Both the position numbers and the translations under genes were made by a program. Positions 18,617-33,744 of a stretch of 64,000 nucleotides of DNA are shown here, in pieces. The DNA lies in assembly GCF_003096675.1 (NCBI RefSeq), contig NZ_QEKW01000005.1, forward strand, positions 62,001-126,000, read 5' to 3'. The notes under the pieces are model-generated. The model was not told the DNA's origin. It ran no database searches and saw only the letters and a program-made list of their open reading frames with translations. Each line of letters begins with the position of its first letter. The first letter of the stretch is position 1. This DNA is from Actinomycetospora cinnamomea (GTDB taxonomy: Bacteria > Actinomycetota > Actinomycetes > Mycobacteriales > Pseudonocardiaceae).

Positions 18617-18690
18617 GGCCAGGTAGCTCAGTTGGTACGAGCGATCGCCTGAAAAGCGATAGGTCGGCGGTTCGACCCCGCCCCTGGCCA
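18617..18690 (+). tRNA. tRNA-Phe (anticodon GAA), AICE attachment site
   Basis: 74 nt. Acceptor GGCCAGG pairs with CCTGGCC, with discriminator A at 18690. Anticodon stem ATCGC/GCGAT encloses loop CTGAAAA, anticodon GAA at 18651-18653. The 3' half from the anticodon loop to the end is duplicated at 31655-31698, marking integration of the mobile element. The gene is intact because the element supplies an identical 3' part. Confidence 0.95.
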
Positions 18691-18691
18691 C
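18648..18691. repeat. attL, 44-bp direct repeat overlapping tRNA-Phe
   Basis: Identical to 31655-31698. It starts at the anticodon loop (CCTGAAAAGC) and runs one base past the tRNA discriminator. The flanking bases differ on both sides (G18647 vs C31654; C18692 vs A31699), which defines its limits. Confidence 0.95.
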
Positions 18692-18695
18692 CGTC

Positions 18696-18769: not shown

Positions 18770-20002
18770 TCACAGGTCCTTCCACTCGATGGCGTCGAGC
18801 GCCTGGCGCATGGCGTCGAGGTTGGTGTGGGCGTAGATCGCCATCGTGATGTCGACGTGCGCGTGCCGGGCGATGGCCTGGACCACGTGCGGCGGCGTCC
18901 CGAGGTCCAGCAGCAGGCTGACCACGGTGTGACGCAGGTCGTGAAGCCTGACGTCGGGCAGCCCGGCCGTGACGCGCAACCCGTCGAAGTGACGGTTGAG
19001 GTTCCGTGGCTCCAGCGGCTTACCGATCGTTGAGGGGAACACGAGGTCGTGGTCCTCCCACCGGGCCGTCTTGGCTCGGTTCGCGTCCTGACGCCGGCGG
19101 TGCTCCTCGAGGACGCGGCGGGTGACCTTGGGCAGCGGGATCGTCGCCTCCGAGGCGTCCGACTTGGCCGGCCCGACGTAGAGCTGACCGGCCGCTCTCG
19201 CGACCGTCTGCGCGACGGTGAGCGTGGCGCGCTCGAAGTCGATGTCCTGCCAGCGCAGGCCCAGCAGTTCGCCGTGACGTAGCCCGAGCGTGGCGGCGGT
19301 GACGTAGAGCGCGTACCAGCGCGTCCCCTTCGCCGCGTCGAGCAGGCGCTTGGCCTGGGCCACGGTCAGGCCCTTGCCGACCTTGTACTTCGGTGTCGGG
19401 ACCTTCACGAGCTTGGCGACGTTGCGCATCACCAGCTCCTCGCGCTCGGCGTTGCTCAGCGCGTTCCGGAGCACGGCGTGGACGTACTGGACCTGACGGG
19501 CTGTGGCCCGGCGCTCGCAGCACCGCAGGCCGGGCCGGCAGCACGCCGGCTGCTTCGGCTTCCGTCTCGCGTGACGTCCGTTGGTGCAGCACAGGCACTT
19601 GGCGCGGACGGTGCTGATGAAGTGGCGGACGTCGGCGCCGGTGAGTCGGTCGAGTCGCTTCGTACCAAGGCTCGGGACGATGTGCAGCCGGACCACGGAC
19701 TCGTATCCGTGGTAGGTGGTGAGCCGGCGCTCGACCTTGACGATCGCGAGCCAGTGCTCCATGTACTCGGCCACCGACATCGACTTGTCCGGTATCGGGA
19801 TGCCCTGATCGTTGTTCGACTGCAGCCGGACGAGCTCAGCGCGAGCGTCGTCGAAGCTGCGGGCGTACTTGCGCTTGCGCTCCAGGCGGCCCGACGCCGT
19901 GTAGACGTACGCCGAGGCGACCCACAGGCCGTCGCTGGAGCGCTGGAAGATGCTGCCCTCGCCGTTGACCTTCCGGCCCTTCTTGCGCTCGCCGGCCATC
20001 AC
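18770..20002 (-). CDS. int: tyrosine-recombinase integrase
   Basis: 410 aa from GTG 20002 (ATG 19999 is one codon inside). It catalyses attP x attB integration into tRNA-Phe and excision with Xis. N-terminal arm-binding part has KVNGEGSIFQRSSDGLW; the SAM-like core-binding domain contains SVAEYMEHWL. Catalytic residues: Arg242 in LGLRHGELLGLRW, His354-x-x-Arg357 in RLHDLRHTVVSLL, and nucleophile Tyr390 in DITMAIYAHT. Oddity: between the two domains, around residues 133-165, lies a Cys-rich insertion (CLCC, PACC, RCCERR) that could bind zinc. The gene overlaps the excisionase stop and reads toward attL. Confidence 0.95.
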   Translation of the reverse strand: MMAGERKKGRKVNGEGSIFQRSSDGLWVASAYVYTASGRLERKRKYARSFDDARAELVRLQSNNDQGIPIPDKSMSVAEYMEHWLAIVKVERRLTTYHGYESVVRLHIVPSLGTKRLDRLTGADVRHFISTVRAKCLCCTNGRHARRKPKQPACCRPGLRCCERRATARQVQYVHAVLRNALSNAEREELVMRNVAKLVKVPTPKYKVGKGLTVAQAKRLLDAAKGTRWYALYVTAATLGLRHGELLGLRWQDIDFERATLTVAQTVARAAGQLYVGPAKSDASEATIPLPKVTRRVLEEHRRRQDANRAKTARWEDHDLVFPSTIGKPLEPRNLNRHFDGLRVTAGLPDVRLHDLRHTVVSLLLDLGTPPHVVQAIARHAHVDITMAIYAHTNLDAMRQALDAIEWKDL

Positions 20003-20184
20003 ACGACCGCCTGGGCGTCGACGAGCCGCGCGACGTACTCCTCCAGCGAGGCGCGGGGGATGCGCCGAGAGCCGCCGATCTTCACCGAGCGGAGGTCGTG
20101 GTTGCGGAGCAGGTCGTAGACCTTGCAGCGGCTGATCTTGAGCAGCTCGGCCGCTTCCTCGGCCGTGAACAGCAGCGCGTCCAT
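19999..20184 (-). CDS. xis: excisionase, MerR-like/helix-turn-helix DNA-binding protein
   Basis: 61 aa. TAEEAAELLKISRCKVYDLLRNHDLRSVKIGGSRRIPRASLEEYV is the standard excise/DNA-binding domain (winged helix, HTH_17 type), the size and form of AICE Xis proteins. It directs the integrase toward excision. Its TGA overlaps the integrase start, so the two are made as a coupled pair, and it follows the transfer genes in one minus-strand operon. Confidence 0.9.
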   Translation of the reverse strand: MDALLFTAEEAAELLKISRCKVYDLLRNHDLRSVKIGGSRRIPRASLEEYVARLVDAQAVV

Positions 20185-20538: not shown

Positions 20539-20765
20539 CGCTGCACCCCCTGTGGCGAGACGTCGGCAGCGCGGTCGGTGGCGGCACCGAGCTGGTGGGC
20601 GAACTCGCCGGCGCTGCTCGACACCGCGGGCCCGAGGGTCGGGAAGGCGGCGAAGAGCAGCACGAGGGTCACGACTCCGGAGACGAGCGCCGGCGCGGCC
20701 TTGTGGCTCTTGATCAGCAGGGCGGTGACCAAGCCGGCGATGATCACGATCGCGATGAGGTTCAT
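20535..20765 (-). CDS. small membrane protein, SpdB-like (plasmid spread)
   Basis: 76 aa. Two hydrophobic helices, LIAIVIIAGLVTALLI and ALVSGVVTLVLLFAAFPTL, then a polar tail (SSAGEFAHQLGAATDRAAD). Size, topology and place directly after the TraB-type gene match spread (Spd) proteins, which help intramycelial or intercellular distribution of AICE and plasmid DNA. Homology to named Spd proteins is not proven by eye. Its ATG overlaps the TraB stop (TGATG). Confidence 0.6.
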   Translation of the reverse strand: MNLIAIVIIAGLVTALLIKSHKAAPALVSGVVTLVLLFAAFPTLGPAVSSSAGEFAHQLGAATDRAADVSPQGVQR

Positions 20766-22027
20766 CAGTGCGCCCGCCGTCCGTGCGCGGCGATCCGGTC
20801 GCAGTACTCGCCGTAGTCGCCGAGGTAGGGCACGCGGATGCGCTGGCAGTCCCTGCCAAGTCCTGACAGGTAAGCCACGCCGGGGTCGGCGTTGGCGTGC
20901 TCCTGCCCGAGCGAGCGGGCGTCGGTGCCGTGGAGCATCTCCAGCGAGTCCGCCGGCACCCGGAAGCTGAGCCTCAGGGCGAACTGGTCGCGGGCGTAGC
21001 CGCCGCCGACGGCGGTGGCCTCGAAGCGCTGGGCGAGCATCAGCACCCGGAACGCGGCCTTGCGGCCCTCGGAGAGCAGCCTCAGCACGGCTATGCGGAT
21101 GCGGTCGCCGACCGGGATGCCTTCGCCGCGCTTGGGCTTCGGGAGTCCGTCAGCGGCCCGTAGGAGGCCGGGGAACTCCTCCAGCACCACGAGGACCGTC
21201 GGTGTCTGCGGCGACGGCTCGACCTTGTCGCGGCGCGGCGGGATCGTCGCCAGCCGGCGGTCCATCTCGGCGACCAGGTCCTCCAGCAGCACCGCGTGAG
21301 CGGCGATGTCGTGCGTCCCGGTGACCTGGTGAGGCCGGTGCACCGTGTCGTCCCAGGCGCGGCCGAGCAGAAGACCGGTGATGTCCGAGCCGGTGACGAG
21401 GACGTCCGGGGCGGCGGCGAGCTGGGCCAGCAGCCCGTAGGTGAACACCGACTTCCCGGAGCCGTTCATGCCCTGCACCGCGAGGTGGGCGGGGTCGGTG
21501 AGGGCGTGTCCGAGGGTGGTGGCGTCCTCGGTGCGCCCGAGGATCACCGAGTCCGACCCGGTCTCGACGGTGACGGGTGGGAGGCCGAAGCCGCCGCGCA
21601 GCGGGTCGGCATCGAGCAGGTGCAGCCGTACCCAGCGGCCCGCGATCGGTTCGACGCGCAGGGCGTGGGCGCCGAGGGTGTGGGCGAGGCGGGCGCCGTT
21701 CTCGCCCTTGGTGAAGTCAGCCGGCTCCTGGCCGGCCATCAGTTCGACGGTGAACGAGGTGGGTGGGCCGAGGCGGACCTCCCCGACTCGCGGGGTGCGG
21801 ATGGTGACGCCTGCCGCGACCTGGACGTATTGGCAGAGGGCGATGCCGGTGCAGGCCTCCCGGAAGGCCGCCTTGAGCGAGGCGGCGAACGCCAGGACCG
21901 ATGCTTCGTAGTCGCGACGGGCGCGCTCGGCGCGGAGCCGGGCGAACAGCCCGGGCCGGTGCGCGCCGGGCCCGCGGGTGCGCCCGGAGCGGTGCTCGAG
22001 GCGGCGCGTGTGCTCGAGGGCGGTCAT
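20765..22027 (-). CDS. FtsK/SpoIIIE-type DNA translocase for conjugation (TraB-like)
   Basis: 420 aa from ATG 22027. After an Arg-rich N-terminus comes an FtsK-like motor: Walker A at residues 186-193 (GMNGSGKS, in HLAVQGMNGSGKSVFTYGLLAQL), Walker B TVLVVLEEFPGLLRA, and a late RFEATAVGGGYARDQFALRLSF arginine-finger-type region. No N-terminal membrane helices are clear, so it may use the SpdB-like partner. AICEs move double-stranded DNA between cells with one such protein and no relaxase. The gene overlaps its neighbours by 1 and 4 bp in the transfer operon. Confidence 0.85.
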   Translation of the reverse strand: MTALEHTRRLEHRSGRTRGPGAHRPGLFARLRAERARRDYEASVLAFAASLKAAFREACTGIALCQYVQVAAGVTIRTPRVGEVRLGPPTSFTVELMAGQEPADFTKGENGARLAHTLGAHALRVEPIAGRWVRLHLLDADPLRGGFGLPPVTVETGSDSVILGRTEDATTLGHALTDPAHLAVQGMNGSGKSVFTYGLLAQLAAAPDVLVTGSDITGLLLGRAWDDTVHRPHQVTGTHDIAAHAVLLEDLVAEMDRRLATIPPRRDKVEPSPQTPTVLVVLEEFPGLLRAADGLPKPKRGEGIPVGDRIRIAVLRLLSEGRKAAFRVLMLAQRFEATAVGGGYARDQFALRLSFRVPADSLEMLHGTDARSLGQEHANADPGVAYLSGLGRDCQRIRVPYLGDYGEYCDRIAAHGRRAH

Positions 22028-22383
22028 CGGATGGTCCTCTCCGTGCAGGCGGCGCACAGCTGGCCGTCCACGGCGGGCATGGGGAACAGCAGCGCGCACC
22101 CGGGACACATGGGTTCGGCGTCGGCGACCGGGTCGGGGATGCCGGCCAGGCGAGCGCGGCGGATGGCGCGGCGGTCGGTGGGAGTGGTGGCCGCCCACAG
22201 GCCGTAGTCCTGGCCGGTGTCCAGCGCCCAGCGCAGGCACTCGGTGGCGACCGGGCAGCGCCCGCAGATGGGGGCGACGGCGATGCGGTGGCGGGCGACG
22301 ACCGTGCTGGTGTCGTCCTCGGACGGCGGAAAGAACAGCTCCGGGTCGGCGTCACGGCACGCCGCGTCGCGCTGCCAGCTCAT
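22024..22383 (-). CDS. WhiB-like iron-sulfur transcription factor with an extra C-terminal zinc-ribbon motif
   Basis: 119 aa. Residues 1-75 form a WhiB domain: Cys9, Cys40, Cys43 and Cys49 (C-x30-C-x2-C-x5-C) to hold a [4Fe-4S] cluster, then YGLWAATTPTDRRAIRRARL, the G[VIL]W turn and basic helix that contacts DNA or sigma factor. The tail adds C93-P-G-C96 and C110-A-A-C113, a second four-Cys site that could bind zinc. The gene sits inside the transfer operon, overlapping TraB by 4 bp, so it may couple transfer to redox or developmental state (inference). Confidence 0.85.
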   Translation of the reverse strand: MSWQRDAACRDADPELFFPPSEDDTSTVVARHRIAVAPICGRCPVATECLRWALDTGQDYGLWAATTPTDRRAIRRARLAGIPDPVADAEPMCPGCALLFPMPAVDGQLCAACTERTIR

Positions 22384-22895: not shown

Positions 22896-23672
22896 TCAGC
22901 GTGCCGGGACCTCGTACTCGAGCACGTACGCCGGCGCGGCCTTGAGGGTGTCGCAGACCTCCAGCGGGCGGCCGGTCGTGTCGTAGGCGGTGCGAACGAG
23001 GACGACGACGGGCACGCCATCGGTGAGCTGGAGCCGGCGGCGCTCCTCGGCGGACGGCATCCGGGCTGAGACCTCTTCGGTGAAGTGGTCCAGCTCGAAG
23101 CCCATGTCCTCCAGGCGCGCGTAGATGCCGCCGGGGCCGGTGTCCGCCTCGACGATGCGCGACCCGGCGGCGACGGAGGCGGGCAGGTAGGAGACCGCGG
23201 TCTCGACCGGCTGCCCATCGGCGAGGTAGCGCCGGGACCGCACGACAACCTCCTCGCCGTCGCCGAGGCGCAGCCGGTCGCGAATCTCCGGGGTAGCGGG
23301 CCCGGTCGACACCTCTAGCTGATCGACGTTCGGCGTGAACCCGGTCTTCTGGGCCTCGACGCTGAACGCCGCCAGCCCCGCCTCCCGGTGGCGTCGGGCG
23401 AAGCGCTCCGACGCGAGCCGACGCACCTGAACGGGCTGGCGAACGAACGTGCCGCGCCCGTGCTCGGCGACCACACGACCCTCGTTGCGCAGCTCCTGGA
23501 CGGCCTGGCGCACGGTCATGCGAGCGACGCCGTAGTGCTCGATGAGCACGGCCTCGCTCGGAAGCTTGTCGCCGGCCGCCAGGTCGCCACGGTCGATCGC
23601 GGCCCGGAGGTGGTCGGCGATCTGCCGATACGGCGGCCGGTCGTCTGCGCGGTCGATGGCCCCGAGCTGCAC
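22896..23672 (-). CDS. GntR family (HutC/UTRA subfamily) repressor, KorSA-like
   Basis: 258 aa from GTG 23672 (GGAGGA just upstream); the longer frame to 23705 would run through an operator copy. N-terminal winged helix: PPYRQIADHLRAAIDRGDLAAGDKLPSEAVLIEHYGVARMTVRQAVQELRNEGRV, followed by GRGTFVRQP. The UTRA ligand domain has VVRSRRYLADGQPVETAVSYLP and PVVVLVRTAYDTTGRPLEVCDTL. In pSAM2, the GntR protein KorSA silences transfer and the activator gene; gene order and operators here suggest the same role. It is divergent from the Nudix gene. Confidence 0.88.
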   Translation of the reverse strand: MQLGAIDRADDRPPYRQIADHLRAAIDRGDLAAGDKLPSEAVLIEHYGVARMTVRQAVQELRNEGRVVAEHGRGTFVRQPVQVRRLASERFARRHREAGLAAFSVEAQKTGFTPNVDQLEVSTGPATPEIRDRLRLGDGEEVVVRSRRYLADGQPVETAVSYLPASVAAGSRIVEADTGPGGIYARLEDMGFELDHFTEEVSARMPSAEERRRLQLTDGVPVVVLVRTAYDTTGRPLEVCDTLKAAPAYVLEYEVPAR

Positions 23673-23673
23673 G

Positions 23674-23689
23674 ACTCCTCCAGACGACT
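23674..23689 (-). promoter_or_regulatory. operator copy overlapping the GntR ribosome-binding site
   Basis: ACTCCTCCAGACGACT differs from the site at 22808-22823 by one base. It lies directly upstream of the GntR start GTG 23672 and includes its GGAGGA ribosome site, consistent with autoregulation. Confidence 0.55.
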
Positions 23690-23708
23690 GGACATCTACC
23701 ATCAATGC

Positions 23709-23734
23709 CGAACGCTACCGAACGGTCACGAACG
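23709..23734. repeat. three CGAACG repeats phased every 10 bp
   Basis: CGAACG at 23709-23714, 23719-23724 and 23729-23734, each 10 bp apart, so on one face of the helix. They lie between the GntR operator and the Nudix ribosome site, in the divergent promoter. A cooperative binding site for an element-encoded regulator is likely; an iteron role is less so at this size. Confidence 0.55.
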
Positions 23735-23747
23735 TCAGGAGGCGACA

Positions 23748-24197
23748 GTGGCAGACACGCCCAAGCACTCGGTCAGCGTCGCCGGCATCGTCATCGACGA
23801 CCGTGACCGCGTGCTCGTCATCCAACGCCGCGACAACGGCCAATGGGAGCCACCCGGAGGTGTGCTCGAGCTACACGAAACCCCAGCGGCAGGCGTTGCG
23901 CGGGAGGTCTTCGAGGAAACGGGCGTTGAGGCAGCGGTGGACCGCCTCACAGGTGCCTACAAGAATATGCCGCGCGGGATCATCTCCCTTGTTTTCCGCT
24001 GCCATCCATTGTCGACCTCCACGACTTCGTCGGATGAGGCTACTGAAGCGCGCTGGGTACACCGAAGCGAGATTCCACAGATGATGACAGAAGCTTATGC
24101 AATTCGGGTCAGCGACGCCTTCCTCGAAGGCGCTCCCGCTGTACGCGCTCATGACGGGAAGAGCCTCGTAAATTCGTCAGAACCAGCTGACGCTTAG
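23748..24197 (+). CDS. Nudix hydrolase, Pif-like (element immunity) candidate
   Basis: 149 aa from GTG 23748, with AGGAGG at 23737-23742. Complete Nudix box G-x5-E-x7-REV-x-EE-x-GV: GGVLELHETPAAGVAREVFEETGVE. The N-terminal strand is VAGIVIDDRDRVLVIQRRDNGQWEPPGG. Nudix enzymes cleave nucleoside diphosphates linked to another group. In pSAM2 a Nudix protein, Pif, beside the KorSA gene blocks redundant transfer into cells that already hold the element; the neighbour arrangement here is the same, so that role is likely. Base composition falls in the 3' half, where the cargo region begins. Confidence 0.82.
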   Translation: MADTPKHSVSVAGIVIDDRDRVLVIQRRDNGQWEPPGGVLELHETPAAGVAREVFEETGVEAAVDRLTGAYKNMPRGIISLVFRCHPLSTSTTSSDEATEARWVHRSEIPQMMTEAYAIRVSDAFLEGAPAVRAHDGKSLVNSSEPADA

Positions 24198-24223
24198 ACT
24201 CCCAGTGGGATAGGTTCTGGCGC

Positions 24224-24898
24224 GTGTCTGAGATTGACAGGTACTTAGCAGCTGCTCGTGATGCGCTGAACGCCGACGGAGTTGCGCGCGTTTGTTCGAG
24301 CGATCCAGGGAGCGAAGCGACCGAGGATGAGATCGAAGAGTATGAGCAGGTCCTAGCTGCGGCGTCCGATGAGCGTCCAATCCAGCAGTTCCTAGAACGG
24401 CATCCCGGGATGCTGACGGCAGAGTACGGCGGCCAATGCCGTTGGATTATCCCGCAACCGCGCCTCGGAAATCAGTGGATACCAGACTTCGCTGTCGCTC
24501 GTCTAGATAGCACGGGCGTTGTTTGGACGCTTGTGGAACTGCAAAGCCCCACCGCGTCCCCGTTTAATTCGAGAGGCGTACCCGGACGTCATCTGAACGA
24601 GGCAATTACGCAGTTAGCGGACTGGCGCCAATGGTTGTTGCGAAACGCAGACTACGCCGAACGTCCAGCAGCAGCCAACGGTCTCGGCATGATTGGTTTG
24701 ACCTACCAAGTGAGGGGATTGATTCTCGTCGGGCGGCAATCGCAACGGGACGACACGACGAGAGAGAAGTTGGCCTACTTCATGTGGGAGCACCGGGTTG
24801 CAATCCACTCTTATGACTGGCTTGCACGAGAAGCCGCCGGGCGTCTCCGCGAGATAAGGGACTTCCCTCGCGAAGCCCCATGCGACTGTGCGAGCTAG
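24224..24898 (+). CDS. DUF4263 (Shedu-like) PD-(D/E)XK-type protein, defence candidate
   Basis: 224 aa from GTG 24224, 26 bp after the Nudix stop. Residues 75-200 follow the DUF4263 pattern: WIPDFAVARLD (Pro87-Asp88-Phe89), VVWTLVELQSP (Glu105), then ITQLADWRQWLLRNADYA, RGLILVGRQSQRDD and VAIHSYDWLAREAAGRL. This domain is the core of Shedu (SduA), a single-gene anti-phage nuclease. Oddities: the E-x-K lysine is Gln107 here, and the N-terminal region is only about 60 residues, so it is a compact form. It lies upstream of a Hachiman-like pair on the same strand. Defence function is inference from family and context. Confidence 0.72.
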   Translation: MSEIDRYLAAARDALNADGVARVCSSDPGSEATEDEIEEYEQVLAAASDERPIQQFLERHPGMLTAEYGGQCRWIIPQPRLGNQWIPDFAVARLDSTGVVWTLVELQSPTASPFNSRGVPGRHLNEAITQLADWRQWLLRNADYAERPAAANGLGMIGLTYQVRGLILVGRQSQRDDTTREKLAYFMWEHRVAIHSYDWLAREAAGRLREIRDFPREAPCDCAS

Positions 24899-25028
24899 GC
24901 AGTCGGGACTGGCCGCGTCATCGAAAGGCGCCCAGCGTCCACGGCCCTCAAGCGACTTGTAACGAGAAGCAGCACTCAAGCGACATGCAGTCGAACTAGT
25001 AGCCCGACGGACCCGGAGAGCGCAGGCG

Positions 25029-25970
25029 TTGACCACTCAGGAGACAGAAGCGCTTCCACCTCAAATTGATCCCCTCGACCTCTTTCCCGGGTTTGCGCCA
25101 GCTTGTCGGTGCCATCGGCAGGGACAGGTACACCGAACCTTCACAGACCTACTCCAACCTGTGTCCTATGTCGATAAGAATGGATGCCGCTGGACTAGAG
25201 CTGTTTTGGAAGCCGACCGAGGGGCGGATGTGACCGAGGCAGCTTGTCGGCTCGCCGACTTATCGATGCGCTGGCGGTGCGCTGGATCGAATGTGGCCTA
25301 CCCTTTGTGGCGGGAGGCCGTCCAAGCAGGCGCGACTCTAGACCTGCGGGACCAGAAGCGAATCACCCCGTTCATTGGCACTGGTTTCGGCACCCCAGCG
25401 ACCCCAAAGCCCGACTCTCACGTTTGCGGTTGGGTCGCCGAGTTCCTCTGGTATTGCATCAGCGCGGAAGAGCGACATCGCGAAGGTCGATCGTTGGCAC
25501 GGCTTGAAGGACCCGGTTTGCACGCCACGGAACCGGGCGGCGATGGACTGGCGATCTGGCGCAAAGAGCACGGCGGCGAGCTCAGCTTCTGCCTGTGGGA
25601 GATTAAGAATAGCGTCGGCAGCGCTGCCGTCTCCGCAACAGTCAAGAGGGCTTACGACCAACTCGGCGATAGGGCAACCGAGTATTTGGCGAAGATGACC
25701 GCAATCGCAGCGTCGCTCGACTACGACCCGCAGATGCAGCAGCTATACGCCGGACTAGTAGATCTATGGGTCGACGACGACGAACAGTCTGCTGCCGGAA
25801 TCGCAGTGGGAACTCATAGCGCGAAGGCGCCGCAACAATGCTTCTCTACCATGCACCAATACTTCCCAGGTAAGCGGCGAGATTGGCAGCTTGAGGGCCT
25901 CGTCGTGGCGATCTCGGACTTCGAAAGCTTCTCCGAGGAGGTTCGAGCTAACGTATGGAGCGTGCTCTAG
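25029..25970 (+). CDS. HamA-like (DUF1837-type) PD-(D/E)XK nuclease of a Hachiman-like system
   Basis: 313 aa from TTG 25029, with GGAGAG at 25015-25020. The middle holds a nuclease pattern: Glu138 in WVAEFLWYCI, Asp172 in GGDGLAIW, and Glu191-x-Lys193 in FCLWEIKNSVGSAAVSATVKRAYDQL, as in HamA proteins, where a helicase partner controls DNA cleavage. The N-terminus has a Cys/His cluster (CRCH at 26-29). It overlaps the helicase start by 16 bp, the expected hamA-hamB order. Low GC and common TTA, AAT and ATA codons mark it as foreign to the host. Not proven: the DUF1837 match was judged by eye. Confidence 0.68.
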   Translation: MTTQETEALPPQIDPLDLFPGFAPACRCHRQGQVHRTFTDLLQPVSYVDKNGCRWTRAVLEADRGADVTEAACRLADLSMRWRCAGSNVAYPLWREAVQAGATLDLRDQKRITPFIGTGFGTPATPKPDSHVCGWVAEFLWYCISAEERHREGRSLARLEGPGLHATEPGGDGLAIWRKEHGGELSFCLWEIKNSVGSAAVSATVKRAYDQLGDRATEYLAKMTAIAASLDYDPQMQQLYAGLVDLWVDDDEQSAAGIAVGTHSAKAPQQCFSTMHQYFPGKRRDWQLEGLVVAISDFESFSEEVRANVWSVL

Positions 25971-28900
25971 ACATTGAGCTTGTCGAGAACGCTTTGGGTC
26001 CTCACCCCACGCTAACTCAAAATTCGACGAACCCCTATCAACGCGTTCAATGGTTCGACCCATCTACAGCTCCTAGGTGGCCAGAGACCGCGGATGACTG
26101 GACGTCGGCCTTGCCGACTGCTGTGGAACTCCAGGCTCAAATAGCTCGCACTGAAGTGACCCTTTTTCTTCACCAGCATGACTTCCCGGAAGAACTCCTG
26201 CGCTCCGCGTGGTATTTGCACGGAGTCGCGAGTTCAGACGCGGCGGCACAACTCTACACTGTTGATCGGCAACGTAACGCCTTCGCCTTGAGTGCTCACA
26301 TCTTCGATCTGGCCACAATCTCGAGCGATCGTCCGACTCGAGAACGATTGAAGCTGGCGTTCGGTGCTCAAGTTGGATACCACAGAAGCGACCGAGAGCC
26401 GAACGCGATTGCGCTCGAGAGGCGATTTAGGATCACGCCCGCTCCATCTGAGTCTCTCGCTGAACCGTCTGTCGCCGGCCCGACCCCAGTTCTCGACTTT
26501 GAATCGCTCGCACTTGATGCTGGTGTATCGTTTCTTGGACTCGACACAGGTCGGACACGGCAACGTCTCGGGCGCTGGCGCGCTGAGTTGCGTCAGCTGC
26601 AAGGCGACACAGGTATCGACGACATGGCTCGCACGATATTCGGTCCAACTTATTGCGTAGTCGAGGCGATTCACCACCTCTTGCAGTATCTAGCTTTGGG
26701 GGATACTGAGGACTTCGACGCAGCGCTTCAGCTGATCGATCAGGCGTTGACATCACCAGAAGGACTGGGAGACCACGACGCACGATGGGTGGCCTCCCAC
26801 CTAAGGTTCCTGGCGGACGAAATGGGCGCCGGTAGCGTTTGGTCACTGCTGCCGCCAGACCTACCCGCGAGCGCGAAGCAAGCATTCACACTCTCGTCTC
26901 CCCCGATCCTTGCGCTTTGGAAGCCGCAACGCGAGCTCCTCCGCCCCGAAACGACGAACGAGGACGGTCAGGCACTCGACGCCCTCCACGAAAATGTCCG
27001 TCGGATCGTGTTATCGGTACCGACCAGTGCCGGGAAGACACTGATATCCCAGCTCCTGACGGTTTCTTTCTTAGCGAGATCAGACTCCAGTGTGTGTTAC
27101 GTTGTGCCACAACGGAGTCTCGGGCGGGAGATTCGCAGAGATCTTAATTCGCGACTCTTGCTGTTGGGTAAGTCCCTTTCCCGCGAACTGCCGGAATTCG
27201 CAGCGAGCGTCGACCAGTTCTTCCGTGAAGTCTTTGGAGAAGATGAAATCTTCCCGATCTCCTTTGATCGAGCCCTCGGCGATGTTTCCATCATGACGCC
27301 GGAAGGTCTCGACCAAGCTTTGAGACGGGACCCGGACGACGTGCTCAAGCAGTATGGAATGTTCGTCTTCGACGAAGTGCATTTGATAAAGGAGAAGTCT
27401 CGCGGCTTCAAGCTCGAGTCGGTGCTCTCATTCTTGCACTTGCATACAAGGGACACGGAGCACAAGATCGTCTTACTGTCTGCCGCTCTCGGGAATGCCG
27501 GGCAGCTTGCGGCGTGGATGTCGTCGGACGGACCTGCAAAGCTACTTGAATCCGACTGGCGAGGACCTCGAAGGCTGCACGCGGTCTTTAATACCGATAT
27601 CAGGTGGAATGACTATACAGTTCAGGACGTGCCACGGGCCAGGGGGAACCTCTCGAAGAGACTTGTTTACGATACCTACGGAAGAGTCAGACTTCGGCCC
27701 GCTCATGGGCAATCACAGGCCGTAGAGACAACAGAGCCGATTGGGCAAACTGTCTTCCGCGCCACAGCCCAGCTGGAGAGGGACAGCAGTCCGGAAGGGC
27801 CGAAGAGTACACCTAGCTACCGCATGCTTGCCGATATCGTGCGACATGTTGGACAAGCCGGACCCGTGCTTGTATTCCGGTCGACTCGAGCGGGCGCGGT
27901 CGCAATGGCCAATGCAGTTGGAGAGGGCCTAGAAGCTCTGCAACAGTGTGAAGACTTGGCCGAGATGGCTCGGGAGAAGCTTAGCGAGAAGCATCCCTTA
28001 CCTGGGCTATTAGCCAAGGGTGTGGCGTTCCACCACGCAGGCTTGCCAATCGATATACAGGAAGCGATTGAAGATGGTCTGCGGGCCGGTCTGCTGAACT
28101 ACGTGACGGCCACAACTACCCTCGCTGAGGGTGTCAATCTGCCCGTACGGACAGTTGTACTCGCAGAAAATTCCTACCCTGGACAGTCGCCAGAAACTCA
28201 CCTCACGGGCTCGCGGCTTGTTAACGCCGTTGGACGCGCTGGTCGGGCGACGAAAGAGACGGAGGGGTGGGTAATCCTTGCGCGCAACGCGGCCCCCACC
28301 GAATCTGATTTTGACCTATTTGAGCCCGCGGAAGATGACCTTCGGGTTTCGTCAGTCCTGCTGGAGGCGTCCGCGCTCGAAGCGTTGGCGGTGTTCGAGG
28401 AAGCTCTTCGCGCCGGCGAGGATGCGGTACTGAGCGCCCACGACGAATTGGCGGAGTTCACGAAGTACGTGTGGTTTATTCTTGCCGCCCAAGAAGAGCT
28501 GACTAGTGCCGAGCGATCGCCCGACCCGATGACGGCATTCGCTGGAACATTGGCCTATCGGCAACTGGACGCCGAGCTCAGAGCGCGCTATGAATCGGTC
28601 GTCGAGGCAGTTACGAGTAGGTATGCACAGCTAGATCGAGAGTCTCGAATCCGCTGGTCGCGAACGGGCGCAGGGCTCCAGACATCGAGACGTCTCGACG
28701 ACCTTGCTCGACGCGTCGCGGATACCTGGTCGCTGACCGACCTCACAAGCGAGGCGGACCCCGGTAGCGTGCTGACCTTTCTGGAGGAAGTAGGGGTACT
28801 AGACGCGATGCTCGACTTCAACGAGTGTCCTCGTACTGGTCTTCAGTTTCAATCGAAGCAGGGAAAGAATGGCCAGACCTTCACGGTCTCTCCGGGTGAC

Positions 28901-29656
28901 CTCCTTGCTGAGTGGGTGTCAGGCGCTAGCCTTCTAGGAATATCGGAGCGACTCTTCTCGCGTATTGAGTCCGAAACGAAGCGCATCGAGCAAGCTGTTG
29001 ATACTGTCACGGACTTTTGTGAGCACTACTTCGCATGGATGCTCGCGGCGTTGGCGGCCCTTGTAAATGCACATCTTGAGGCTGATCGAGCTGAGGCGGA
29101 GTTTCCCACAAACTTGGCGACGTTGGTTAGATACGGCGTACGTTCGAAGCACGCCGTTGAACTGTTGACGTCTGGGGTGCACTCCAGGGACGTTGCCAAC
29201 AGCATTGCTGAGGCTTTTGAGTATGAGGGTGTTGATCCAAACGGCACGGTCGCATGGCTAAGCGCTGTGGGGATCGACGGGTGGCGCGAGAGGTTTTCTG
29301 CTACCAACCTCGACGCTAGGGAGCTTCTCGAATATTGTCGTGATCAAGATAGGTCGATCTTGCAGGAGCTCCTTGGAAGCGGAGTGACCTCGTTCCGACT
29401 TGAGGGATGGAAAGAGGCGGCATCAGACGGCCGCCTTGAGCTTGCCTGTGACGATCTGTCTTCTTCTCCAGCACCTGTGGTAGTGCATGAGATTGCAGGT
29501 GGTGAGCGCCGCTCGCTCGGAGCCGTACCCATCATGAGGCACATCGAAGTGCAGGCACTGATGTCGGCCGGGCTTGAGATGAATCTAGAGTTGAGAGGTG
29601 GGGAGCTCTCGATTTCCCTCATGGGGTTCAGAGGCGACGTACCGGGCGACCTGTAG
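25955..29656 (+). CDS. HamB-like Ski2-type superfamily 2 helicase
   Basis: 1233 aa. Helicase core: Walker A VPTSAGKT at about 355-362, motif Ia VPQRSLGREI, DEVH box at about 473 (FVFDEVHLI), motif III LLSAAL, GVAFHHAGLPIDIQEAIEDG and TATTTLAEGVNLPV before motif VI VGRAGRA at about 759. About 340 residues precede the core and 450 follow it, both without recognisable domains, so it is large for a HamB. HamB is an ATP-dependent helicase that holds HamA in check and releases it on DNA damage or phage attack (known for the family). It overlaps the nuclease gene by 16 bp and the convergent rep gene by 72 bp. Confidence 0.8.
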   Translation: MERALDIELVENALGPHPTLTQNSTNPYQRVQWFDPSTAPRWPETADDWTSALPTAVELQAQIARTEVTLFLHQHDFPEELLRSAWYLHGVASSDAAAQLYTVDRQRNAFALSAHIFDLATISSDRPTRERLKLAFGAQVGYHRSDREPNAIALERRFRITPAPSESLAEPSVAGPTPVLDFESLALDAGVSFLGLDTGRTRQRLGRWRAELRQLQGDTGIDDMARTIFGPTYCVVEAIHHLLQYLALGDTEDFDAALQLIDQALTSPEGLGDHDARWVASHLRFLADEMGAGSVWSLLPPDLPASAKQAFTLSSPPILALWKPQRELLRPETTNEDGQALDALHENVRRIVLSVPTSAGKTLISQLLTVSFLARSDSSVCYVVPQRSLGREIRRDLNSRLLLLGKSLSRELPEFAASVDQFFREVFGEDEIFPISFDRALGDVSIMTPEGLDQALRRDPDDVLKQYGMFVFDEVHLIKEKSRGFKLESVLSFLHLHTRDTEHKIVLLSAALGNAGQLAAWMSSDGPAKLLESDWRGPRRLHAVFNTDIRWNDYTVQDVPRARGNLSKRLVYDTYGRVRLRPAHGQSQAVETTEPIGQTVFRATAQLERDSSPEGPKSTPSYRMLADIVRHVGQAGPVLVFRSTRAGAVAMANAVGEGLEALQQCEDLAEMAREKLSEKHPLPGLLAKGVAFHHAGLPIDIQEAIEDGLRAGLLNYVTATTTLAEGVNLPVRTVVLAENSYPGQSPETHLTGSRLVNAVGRAGRATKETEGWVILARNAAPTESDFDLFEPAEDDLRVSSVLLEASALEALAVFEEALRAGEDAVLSAHDELAEFTKYVWFILAAQEELTSAERSPDPMTAFAGTLAYRQLDAELRARYESVVEAVTSRYAQLDRESRIRWSRTGAGLQTSRRLDDLARRVADTWSLTDLTSEADPGSVLTFLEEVGVLDAMLDFNECPRTGLQFQSKQGKNGQTFTVSPGDLLAEWVSGASLLGISERLFSRIESETKRIEQAVDTVTDFCEHYFAWMLAALAALVNAHLEADRAEAEFPTNLATLVRYGVRSKHAVELLTSGVHSRDVANSIAEAFEYEGVDPNGTVAWLSAVGIDGWRERFSATNLDARELLEYCRDQDRSILQELLGSGVTSFRLEGWKEAASDGRLELACDDLSSSPAPVVVHEIAGGERRSLGAVPIMRHIEVQALMSAGLEMNLELRGGELSISLMGFRGDVPGDL

Positions 29657-30922
29657 GGCGTAAGATGTGCCGTCGTTTACTGCGATCCAGCCGCGGTTGC
29701 CGTTTGACATGAGGCGCACGCGGGAGCGCGACCGGCGGAAGCGCACGCGACCGGTCGTCTGGTCGACGCGGGGCTTCCAGGTGTGTTGGGCGCGGCGCTG
29801 GGCCTTCGCCCAGCGACGGGCCACGCGGCCGGCGCGGATGCCATCGTCGGGCGAGACGCGGACGGTGCGTATGGCGCGGTGGAGGGCCCACACGCCCCAG
29901 AAGCGGCCGGGGCCGGTGCCGGGCTCGGACCACTCAGGCGGGACGTGGTGCTGGTACTCCTTCGCAGCCATCAGCCCATGCTTGGTGAAGTACGCGGCGA
30001 CCCGTCGCGGGTCGGGGGCGCGCAGGCCCTCGGCGTAGTCCAGCGCGGTGCCAGCGCGTTCGTGACGGCGGCGCTGCTCGGGGTCGGGGTGATCGACAAC
30101 GTCGGCCCACGCCGCAGAGAGCCACACGGCGAACGTCTCGCCGGTCGTACGGGCGCGGCCGTGGGGCGGGGTGCAGAGCATGTGCACGTGCGGGGCGCCG
30201 CGGCGCTGGAACTCCAGCTTCCACACGCACGCCCATTCCTCGCCCCAGGCGCGGGCGTAGCGCTTGCGCAGCGCCTTCATGTGCCGCTTGAGCACCTGCC
30301 CGGTGGGGACGACAGTGAGCCAGTCGCCGGGGTAGGTCAGCGTGACCATCGCCGGGAGTCGACCCGAGGCGTAAAGCGGCGTGTAGTCCAGCTCGCAGAG
30401 CCGCCGCACCATGTTCGCCCTGCTCTTGCGCGACCACGAGGTGATCGCCGTCCGCGGCGTCGGGGGCTCGGGCCACTCGTCGGTCGCGATGTGCGCGGCC
30501 ACCGCGGCATCGACGTCCTTCACGTGCGCGGCGCGCGCCCGCTCCTCGGTGCGTTCCCGCCGAGCCCAGTCCCGGCAGGCGACCGCGAACACGCCCGGCC
30601 CGACGGTCAGCTCCCACCGCGGACCCTCCGCCAAGGTGCCGGGCTCCTCGCGGATCGCGGGCAGCATCGCGGCCGCCGCGTCGACGAGCTCCGGAGAGGG
30701 GAACGCCGGGGTCCACAACCCCGCGATCGAGTCCGGGACCGACGTCTCGTCGAGGCCGTCAGACTCGGTGTCGACGTGGTCGCTGGGCCCGCGGCCCGAT
30801 ATGGCACATAGAACAAGCCCAGGCGGCCGGCCCTCGGCTGGCGCCGGGGCGGCGGCCGGGTCCGTCGCGACCGGCTTACGCCGGTCGCTCCTGTCTTCGA
30901 CCCGCTGCGGCGTGCCGGCCAC
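29585..30922 (-). CDS. rolling-circle (HUH) replication initiator, RepSA-like
   Basis: About 445 aa from GTG 30922; the frame stays open to GTG 31081, so the start is uncertain. The HUH motif is His245-x-His247 in GAPHVHMLC, and the catalytic Tyr311 with Lys314 is in RRVAAYFTKHG, as in RepSA-type initiators of pSAM2-like AICEs. It nicks the element origin to begin replication before transfer. The C-terminal part is Arg-rich (TTGRVRFRRSRSRVRLM). The final 24 codons overlap the 3' end of the convergent helicase gene, so its original C-terminus may have been replaced when the cargo entered. The gene is high-GC like the backbone. Confidence 0.82.
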   Translation of the reverse strand: MAGTPQRVEDRSDRRKPVATDPAAAPAPAEGRPPGLVLCAISGRGPSDHVDTESDGLDETSVPDSIAGLWTPAFPSPELVDAAAAMLPAIREEPGTLAEGPRWELTVGPGVFAVACRDWARRERTEERARAAHVKDVDAAVAAHIATDEWPEPPTPRTAITSWSRKSRANMVRRLCELDYTPLYASGRLPAMVTLTYPGDWLTVVPTGQVLKRHMKALRKRYARAWGEEWACVWKLEFQRRGAPHVHMLCTPPHGRARTTGETFAVWLSAAWADVVDHPDPEQRRRHERAGTALDYAEGLRAPDPRRVAAYFTKHGLMAAKEYQHHVPPEWSEPGTGPGRFWGVWALHRAIRTVRVSPDDGIRAGRVARRWAKAQRRAQHTWKPRVDQTTGRVRFRRSRSRVRLMSNGNRGWIAVNDGTSYALQVARYVASEPHEGNRELPTSQL

Positions 30923-31654
30923 TCCTGCCCCGGCCGCCCACGACGACAGCGAGGAGGCGGGCGCCGGCGTGTACGTGCGCCAGGGATCAGGCAGGGCGGG
31001 CAGCGACCGTCGCGACGACCGAGTCGACGACAACGCCGAGGACGAGCGGGACCGGGTGCTCAAGGTGGGGGAGTGGGACACGGCGAGACCTCTCGGCGAG
31101 GTCGTCTCGCGGCGTCTGACCGGATGCGGACGCGCGGCATCGCCGCAGGACCCGGTGGGGTCTGCGGTGGGCGCGTCAGATGGGCCGTCTCGCGGCCCTG
31201 GCGGTCAGAGCGGCGAGACGGCGGCGGACGGGATCAGCGGACGAATGGGTGCGAGCCTTCGGCGACCAGGCGCTCCGCCCTGGACCAGGACACCGACCTG
31301 AGGAGACGAGGCGCGAGCGTCGAGCGGGTCGGGAGTGTGGTGGTGGTCGGGACGGGGTCTCGCCCCCGTCGGCGCTTCCGGGGTCTGACAGCCCGCTCGC
31401 ACCACCGCAAGGGCCACGCTGAGCACGAAGGTCCAGAGGGTCGACGGTGTGGCCCTTGCCCCGGCACGAGCGACCTGTCCGAGGCGACCCCGCGCCGCCG
31501 AGGGAGAGACCCCGAGGCCGTGCCGTGCGGCGTGGGTGCACTGCACCAGCCCTGCACCAGCGGGACGAGACTCGGGAGTGTCCGGCCCCGTCTGCTCCTG
31601 TCGTTCGCCCTGCTCAGCAGACTCACCTAGACGAGTTGTGGCGTGTTCCGGGCC
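30923..31654. other. right-end noncoding region of the AICE
   Basis: 732 bp between the chosen rep start and attR. Long open frames on both strands overlap one another, show Arg/Pro-rich nonsense composition and lack ribosome sites, so I annotate no gene; the rep frame itself continues to 31081. The segment near 31535-31560 holds paired CTGCACCAG repeats and a GGTGCACTGCACC near-palindrome. It probably also contains the rep promoter, and perhaps the transfer or replication origin, which I cannot place. Confidence 0.5.
31535..31560. repeat. right pair of CTGCACCAG repeats, possible integrase arm-type sites
   Basis: CTGCACCAG at 31541-31549 and 31552-31560 (11-bp period) with the same CCC and CGGG context as the left pair at 18742-18761. 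The first copy also forms the near-palindrome GGTGCACTGCACC at 31535-31547. Occurrence at both element ends suggests recombination-protein binding. Confidence 0.5.
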
Positions 31655-31698
31655 CCTGAAAAGCGATAGGTCGGCGGTTCGACCCCGCCCCTGGCCAC
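31655..31698. repeat. attR, 44-bp direct repeat (3' fragment of tRNA-Phe)
   Basis: Exact copy of 18648-18691, corresponding to the tRNA-Phe anticodon loop through the discriminator base plus one. There is no 5' half, so it is not a functional tRNA. It marks the chromosome-distal end of the AICE. Confidence 0.95.
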
Positions 31699-32547: not shown

Positions 32548-33744
32548 GTGAACAGCACAGGAGCGCCGAACCTGCTGGACGCGGTGCTCGTCCTGCTGCT
32601 GTTCCTCGCCGTGTTCCGCGGCTGGCGCCAGGGTGCGCTGTCCCAGCTCACCGCGTTCGCCGGTCTCGCCCTCGGTCTGCTCGCCGGCATGTGGTTGGCG
32701 CCGCGTGTCGCCGACGCGATCGTCGACGGGCCCGGAGCGGCCCTGCTGACCCTCGGCCTGCTCCTCGTTGCGGGGTTGGTCGGACAGGGTGTGGGGATCG
32801 CCGTGGGTCTCCGCCTGCGCCGCGGCGCCGACCGCGTCGGGGTCGGTCCGGTCGATCGCGTGGCCGGCATCGGTGTCGGCGTCGCCATCACGCTGTTCGT
32901 GGTCTGGCTGCTCGCCGGGGCGCTGGTGCAGGGCCCGTCGGCCGCGATCTCCCAGCAGATCCGCGGATCGGCCGTCGTCGACGTCCTCGACCGCGCGTTG
33001 CCCTCACCGCCGGACGTCGTCGGGAGCGTCGCCGCCCATCTCGACCGTCAGGGCTTCCCGCAGGTGTTCGCCGACCTCGGTGGCGGCGTCACCGCGGCGC
33101 CGGTGCCGGAGACGGCCGACGCGTCGGTGCGGGCGGCTGCCGCGGCCGGACAGCCGAGCACCGTGATGGTCCGCGGTGTGGGGTGCGGCGGCCGGATCGG
33201 AACGGGCTCGGGGTTCGTGACCCGCCCCGGTGTCGTCGTGACCAACGCGCACGTCGTGGCCGGCTTCGAGCGACTCACCGTGCAGGACACCGACGGCACG
33301 CACCCCGCCGTGGCGATCGGGGTCGACCCGGACCTCGACCTGGCCGTCCTCGCGGTTCCCGACACAGAGGCGCCCCCGATCGCGTGGGCCGACACGGCGC
33401 TGAGCCGCGGCACCGAGGGAGCCGTCCTCGGCTTCCCGGGAGGCCGGACGGACCTCGTCGTGGAACCGGCGACGGTGCGGACGCGGATCGACGCCGTCGG
33501 GCGGGACATCTACGGCGAGGATCAGGTCCGTCGCGAGGTCCTCGTCCTCGCGAGCTCCGTCGAGCGCGGGAACTCCGGCGGTCCCTTCGTCACCGCGGAC
33601 GGTCGCGTCGGCGGTGTGGTGTTCGCCGGCGACGCGGCGGGCGGCGACACCGCCTACGCCCTCACCCCCGACGAGGTCCGCCCCGTGGTGGAGGACGCGG
33701 TCGCCCGCGACGAGGAGGCCCCGGTCGGCGCCTGCCGCCCGTGA
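32548..33744 (+). CDS. MarP-like membrane-anchored serine protease (CvpA domain plus trypsin-like domain)
   Basis: 398 aa from GTG 32548. Residues 8-130 have four membrane helices with the CvpA pattern (LLDAVLVLLLFLAVFRGWRQGALSQ). The periplasmic protease domain carries the triad His235 (VTNAHVVAG), Asp264 (DLDLAVLAVP) and Ser343 (RGNSGGPFVT). Cys178 in GVGCGGRIGTGSGF and Cys396 near the end may form a disulfide, as in the redox-controlled MarP of mycobacteria, where the protease is needed for acid resistance. Length matches MarP (about 397 aa). It is monocistronic. Confidence 0.9.
   Translation: MNSTGAPNLLDAVLVLLLFLAVFRGWRQGALSQLTAFAGLALGLLAGMWLAPRVADAIVDGPGAALLTLGLLLVAGLVGQGVGIAVGLRLRRGADRVGVGPVDRVAGIGVGVAITLFVVWLLAGALVQGPSAAISQQIRGSAVVDVLDRALPSPPDVVGSVAAHLDRQGFPQVFADLGGGVTAAPVPETADASVRAAAAAGQPSTVMVRGVGCGGRIGTGSGFVTRPGVVVTNAHVVAGFERLTVQDTDGTHPAVAIGVDPDLDLAVLAVPDTEAPPIAWADTALSRGTEGAVLGFPGGRTDLVVEPATVRTRIDAVGRDIYGEDQVRREVLVLASSVERGNSGGPFVTADGRVGGVVFAGDAAGGDTAYALTPDEVRPVVEDAVARDEEAPVGACRP

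Follow-up and report, generated by a model that had tools for sequence, protein, structure and literature searches.

A HamB-type helicase paired with a probable divergent relative of HamA, beside a Shedu-like gene, in an AICE of Actinomycetospora cinnamomea

Introduction

Hachiman consists of the nuclease HamA (DUF1837) and the helicase HamB, and published work describes control by the helicase, sensing of DNA ends or damage, and DNA destruction (PMC12278908). The N-terminal helical domain of HamB binds HamA and is described there as missing in related Ski2 helicases (PMC12278908), and HamA is known to carry a D-ExK nuclease motif (PMC12278908, PMC12799240). AbpAB and the protease-HamA fusion HamMAB are described as Hachiman variants with an altered effector side (PMC12278908, PMC12799240), and Hachiman type II combines hamAB with a third gene, HamC (DUF3223) (PMC8565338, the PADLOC paper). 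The cargo of AICEs is reported to be variable and to include phage-resistance genes (PMC9513070). According to a survey of Actinomycetota, most known defence systems are absent or rarer in this phylum (PMC10482375).

Here we analyse a window, meaning the whole stretch of 64,000 nt from Actinomycetospora cinnamomea (contig NZ_QEKW01000005.1, positions 62,001-126,000, forward strand), in which an earlier sequence-only reading had pointed to three plus-strand genes with a possible defence function. Profile searches used Pfam, PADLOC 2.0.0 and NCBIfam. Locus handles (L) denote regions compared with the window.

Results

An AICE with a three-gene cargo

The three-gene cargo is carried by a 13-kb AICE with a perfect 44-bp direct repeat at both ends. 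The hallmarks of an AICE are present, namely att repeats in a tRNA gene, an integrase, an FtsK-type protein, a GntR regulator, a Nudix hydrolase and Rep, and the element matches the published AICE gene list (PMC11706625). This gene set, together with the repeats, bears out the earlier claim of a conjugative element, and all three plus-strand genes were found as open reading frames in the cargo slot between the Nudix and rep genes:

18617-18692, tRNA-Phe, host of the left repeat
18648-18691, + strand, AICE end repeat, left copy (44 bp), within the 3' portion of tRNA-Phe
18770-20002, - strand, tyrosine integrase (Pfam Phage_integrase, 2e-23)
19999-20184, - strand, excisionase-like HTH_17 protein (Pfam, 2.1e-15)
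20765-22240, - strand, FtsK/SpoIIIE-type transfer protein (Pfam, 3e-5, at its cut-off)
22896-23705, - strand, GntR/UTRA regulator (Pfam UTRA, 3.4e-28; GntR, 2.4e-20)
23748-24197, + strand, Nudix hydrolase (Pfam NUDIX, 1.7e-18, on the longer ORF 23388-24197)
24224-24898, + strand, gene 1, Shedu-like protein, 224 aa, GTG start, SduA_C domain at residues 48-200
25029-25970, + strand, gene 2, candidate HamA-like nuclease, 313 aa, TTG start, with E138, D172 and E191-x-K193
25955-25970, + strand, overlap of genes 2 and 3, 16 bases
25955-29656, + strand, gene 3, HamB-like Ski2-type helicase, 1233 aa, ATG start, PTSAGKT at 356 and GRAGR at 760
29585-31081, - strand, replication initiator (rep) of the AICE (Pfam REP_ORF2-G2P, 1.3e-10)
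31655-31698, + strand, AICE end repeat, right copy (44 bp), identical to the left one

The start of the Nudix gene (23748) was set by comparison with relatives. At their 3' ends, rep and the helicase gene share 72 bases. The cargo has a G+C content of 58.3% (58.7, 59.7 and 57.6% for genes 1, 2 and 3), compared with 73.4% for the whole window. The earlier figures of about 50% against more than 80% describe extreme lines rather than means, as 60-base lines span 45-70% in the cargo and 48-92% in the window. Outside the element, an ORF at 32548-33744 combines a colicin V production domain with a trypsin-like protease domain.

The helicase resembles HamB at both ends

Among PADLOC models, gene 3 scores best with PDC-M23B (2.4e-73) and next with HamB (5.1e-53), as do 14 of 14 family members. 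The best PDB match of the single sequence is HamB (8vx9, 1.5e-25). When a 14-row helicase profile was searched against the PDB, several eukaryotic or archaeal Ski2-type helicases outranked HamB; many of these have a pair of helicase cassettes, and scores are dominated by the shared core. Profile-profile comparison of the full-length protein with HamB gave 100%. Taken separately, the two ends match as well: residues 1-335 with the HamB N-terminal region (93.8%, P 1.7e-7), residues 790-1233 (444 residues) with the C-terminal one (97.6%, 4e-12), compared with 0.3% and 0.1% for the crossed comparisons. Shuffles of the N-terminal part scored at most 20.3 against 57.1 for the real comparison (145 scored of 150).

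These results uphold the assignment as a Ski2-type, HamB-like helicase. The roughly 340 N-terminal and 450 C-terminal residues that had been called unrecognised do exist, but both stretches are HamB-like, and novel terminal domains are ruled out because both ends match the ends of HamB. A tree of 16 new-type and 10 canonical helicases places each group on one side of a single branch (99/99). In a midpoint drawing, the new group falls between the HamB1/PDC-M23B-type helicases and two long-branched HamB, with the root unsure and the long rows poorly placed. The 15-row helicase set omits L009, L010 and L022 (helicase broken), L020 and L049; L049 is included in the tree.

Gene 2 and its relatives

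Searched alone, gene 2 hit no model of Pfam, PADLOC or NCBIfam, and the PDB gave nothing noteworthy. The curated HamA/DUF1837 models in particular are unmatched, by gene 2 in all three libraries and by 17 family members in Pfam and PADLOC. The 17-row family yielded only chance matches in Pfam and PADLOC (best 0.027 and 0.039, one member each), and a PDB sequence search with the family profile returned nothing.

Relatives of gene 2 occur in 6 of 100 related genomes and in 3 of 396 genomes of the phylum, both counts including the genome of the window and the former including one weak match. The weak match L006/L011, with an E-value of 9.1e-4 over 63 residues, was dropped as a relative. Sixteen plasmid records contain relatives (Streptomyces 13, Deinococcus 2, Rhodococcus 1). 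Twelve of the 16 were inspected, and in all 12 of these regions the product is labelled 'hypothetical protein'. Phage records and viral contigs yielded no relatives, and one scan of genome contigs gave a single partial relative (L012), cut by a contig end. A structure model of gene 2 built on a two-row alignment of the window and L012 was unusable (mean pLDDT 34).

In the 17-row alignment of the family, seven columns are invariant, E138 and D172 included. In a 19-row set, which omits L020 as a near copy and L025 for its interrupted nuclease gene, E138 and D172 are present in 19 of 19 rows, and E191 and K193 in all 18 rows that reach this point.

Profile comparison of gene 2 with HamA

The gene 2 family and HamA were set against each other in four profile-profile comparisons. 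The broadest, of 19 gene 2 relatives with 15 HamA of several groups, gave 51.6% (P 1.5e-4) over 213 columns and set E138, D172, E191 and K193 opposite the HamA motifs GxxGE, GxD and GExK. Leaving out any one HamA row gave 37-79%. None of 200 column shuffles of HamA reached the observed score of 38.0 (best 20.6), and the reversed profile scored 10.0; 100 shuffles of the gene 2 family scored at most 20.2. The Shedu family, which is also PD-(D/E)XK, scored 19.9 as a control profile. The three narrower comparisons were weak, at 1.1% (in a different register), 1.0% and 1.7% (a narrower HamA1 set).

Homology of gene 2 to HamA is therefore probable but not proven. The moderate profile match suggests that the nuclease family is a very divergent relative of HamA, invisible to the libraries tried. 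The sequence-only reading of the 313-aa protein as HamA consequently stands in part: its position, its residues and one moderate profile match of four agree with it, while the HamA/DUF1837 library models do not match.

The pair and its junction recur

Genes 2 and 3 are adjacent in all 20 loci read, which come from Actinomycetota and Deinococcota (the window, L007-L010, L017-L030 and L049); because L017, L020, L021, L025 and L028 are close relatives, these are not 20 independent cases. In every one of the 20, across the two phyla, the two genes overlap by exactly 16 bases. The overlap encodes the end of the nuclease, typically VW[ST]xL, and the start of the helicase, typically [MV][ED]R[AT]L. 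Among 13 canonical or AbpA-type pairs, none has a 16-base junction. Eight overlap by 4 bases (L035, L047, L051-L054, L057 and L083), and the others overlap by 14 (L055) or 11 bases (L050, longest start), abut (L037) or leave gaps of 10 (L034) and 257 bases (L038).

In 4 of the 20 loci the pair has one broken gene, through IS insertion in L009, L010 and L025 and through a split helicase frame in L022. The interrupting transposase genes lie at 11684-13078 in L009, 13673-14806 in L010 and 7684-8805 in L025.

The genes upstream of the pair vary. They encode a TPR-HEPN protein (L008), an AAA ATPase (L017), an Mrr-like protein (L018), ParA/ParB on the opposite strand (L023) and, by eye, an HTH protein (L030); the large upstream ORF in L029 is, judged by eye, pPIWI-like. 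The TPR-HEPN gene of L008 (7217-8929, LA2681-like) and the start of the nuclease gene have 4 bases in common.

No SduA is annotated beside the pair in the 12 plasmid regions among the other 19 loci. An SduA profile scan of all 19 likewise found none, with a narrow profile (4 sequences) that lacked a positive control; the annotation of the records, covering 12 of the 19, is for this reason the stronger evidence against a conserved trio. From the other side, 3 of the 18 plasmid records with gene 1 relatives were inspected, and none has the pair beside such a relative. Plasmid NZ_CP107895.1 carries an SduA gene and, about 63 kb away from it, a pair that is interrupted. In the window, 131 bases separate genes 1 and 2, and no promoter- or terminator-like site was found within 24100-26000 by a scan that has little power at this G+C. 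The gene trio was not seen elsewhere, and a three-gene system was rejected on the grounds that the trio does not recur at the other 19 pair loci. Two options had been offered at the outset, two stacked systems or one system with a second nuclease; the first fits, and the second finds no support.

Gene 1 is Shedu-like with an altered motif

Gene 1 matches Pfam SduA_C (DUF4263; 3.2e-10, 40.8 bits against a cut-off of 27) and PADLOC SduA (1e-17), in agreement with the original DUF4263/Shedu-like reading of the 224-aa protein. A genome search for PF14082 listed no match in the genome of the window itself, contrary to this direct Pfam match.

Gene 1 has VELQ where the solved SduA 8ti8 (PDB) has IEIK, in a weak match (E 0.011); the E-x-K nuclease motif of Shedu is thus absent from gene 1, with ExQ at that position. 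The three fetched plasmid relatives (L039, L040 and L041) all have ExE, and with the window's gene 1 they make up a Shedu-like subgroup in which E-x-Q or E-x-E replaces E-x-K. Eleven SduA_C loci were fetched from further genomes of the class, and all 9 readable ones have ExK (2 were unreadable). ExE or ExQ occurs in some active restriction enzymes. Relatives of gene 1 were found in 18 plasmid records, in none of 100 related genomes apart from gene 1 itself, and in no phage records. Gene 1 is probably an independent neighbour that shares the cargo slot with the nuclease-helicase pair.

The slot beside rep in related elements

Of 18 genomes of the genus, 12 have a relative of rep. Ten regions were compared with that of the window (G007 omitted), and in nine of the ten the stretch beside rep has a low G+C (0.56-0.60), with a different gene set in each, for the most part defence-like. 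The slot contents include:

L083, canonical Hachiman (local profiles)
L084, Lamassu LmuB and LmuA
L085, KAP/NB-ARC ATPase with a QatA-like score
L086, TRADD-N-associated membrane protein
L088, CBASS cyclase and UG22 reverse transcriptase
L089, PDC-M02B
L090, AAA ATPase of Ari/Ptu type
L091, DUF6414

No Nudix relative was found in L088 and L091. Ten slot proteins were scanned, leaving out L087, and with L092 cut by a contig end; seven have a PADLOC match at 1e-3, some of these being generic ATPases, and three have none. The stretch between Nudix and rep (24198-29584 in the window; L083-L091) is possibly a defence-cargo site, and our literature search found no description of this slot as such.

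Frequency of the two nuclease types

Among 394 genomes drawn from the class, the gene 2 profile matches 3 (own genome included) and Pfam HamA matches 7, of which 6 lie over the cut-off. One genome, G497, has both a gene 2-type and a Pfam-detectable HamA. With 3 gene 2-type against 7 HamA genomes, an appreciable fraction of the Hachiman-like systems of Actinomycetota may therefore escape notice.

Discussion

We consider it fairly probable that genes 2 and 3 are a Hachiman-like nuclease-helicase pair with a divergent HamA-type nuclease, and that gene 1 is a Shedu-like gene in its own right. Since no curated HamA model matches gene 2, the pair is not classed as Hachiman in the strict sense; we class it as a Hachiman-like variant, which by analogy probably works as Hachiman does. 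On the published model (PMC12278908), the helicase would restrain the nuclease through its N-terminal domain while scanning DNA. A free single-stranded end or damage would then set off ATP hydrolysis, and the released nuclease would destroy phage and host DNA. Complex formation, DNA-end sensing, DNA destruction and an abortive outcome are each proposed here from published Hachiman work.

A possible, if somewhat doubtful, reading makes the 313-aa family a distinct effector class on a HamB scaffold with its own activation, be it a HamA divergent enough to make up a Hachiman type by itself or a nuclease that was recruited independently. This class would span Actinomycetota and Deinococcota and would have been missed by defence surveys because the libraries tried hold no model for it.

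It is unlikely that gene 2 is a PD-(D/E)XK nuclease unrelated to HamA that was recruited onto a HamB-type helicase, which would make the pair a Hachiman analogue, possibly with its own activation rule. The missing direct HMM match to HamA, the 1-2% reached by three of the four profile comparisons, and a junction constant at 16 bases as opposed to the varied junctions of the 13 canonical or AbpA-type pairs would all suit such an origin. However, the broad comparison runs collinearly across 213 columns, holds the catalytic residues in register and lies far above the shuffles and the Shedu control. Furthermore, the helicase has kept the HamB N-terminal region, the part to which HamA binds in Hachiman (PMC12278908).

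Decay of the cassette into cargo with no present defence function appears quite unlikely. One pair gene is broken in 4 of the 20 loci, and a survey reports many pseudogenes in AICE cargo (PMC9513070), yet in the window all three frames are open and genes 2 and 3 keep their catalytic residues, with the Shedu-like gene, though, lacking the usual lysine. That all three genes form one system, with the Shedu-like ExQ protein as sensor or regulator of the pair, is highly improbable: they are adjacent, on one strand and similar in G+C, with no terminator- or promoter-like site found by the low-power scan, but 131 bases part genes 1 and 2, SduA was not found at the other 19 pair loci, where upstream genes vary, and the 3 inspected of 18 plasmid records show no pair beside a gene 1 relative.

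Defence counts depend on profile libraries, and the HamB-paired nuclease family described here matches no model tried. The pair also lends itself to testing which elements of the nuclease-helicase interface matter in keeping the nuclease under control, and the compact AICE slot is a good place to seek more defence genes.

Comparison with known systems

The Shedu system (SduA) resembles gene 1 in its SduA_C nuclease-fold domain; gene 1 differs in being short, with about 47 residues ahead of the domain, and in having ExQ rather than ExK. Hachiman type II also has a third gene beside the pair, whereas in the window this gene is SduA-like instead of DUF3223, and it does not recur. PDC-M23, a PADLOC phage-defence candidate (PDC-M23A and PDC-M23B) for which our literature search found no paper, is similar through its helicase component, the best-scoring model for gene 3. 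It differs in the nuclease: gene 2 and 17 members have no PDC-M23A match at E 1, whereas the HamA-type partner of the PDC-M23B helicase in L048 does match. Unlike AbpAB and HamMAB, the new pair has no fusion or recurrent extra gene, and it keeps its nuclease residues.

With Hachiman (HamA and HamB), the pair shares the nuclease-helicase order, a large helicase of Ski2 type with HamB-like ends, the E...D...ExK residues and a location on mobile elements. In contrast to Hachiman, its nuclease is missed by the HamA models (Pfam PF08878, PADLOC HamA), its overlap is constant at 16 bases and its helicases form their own group (99/99).
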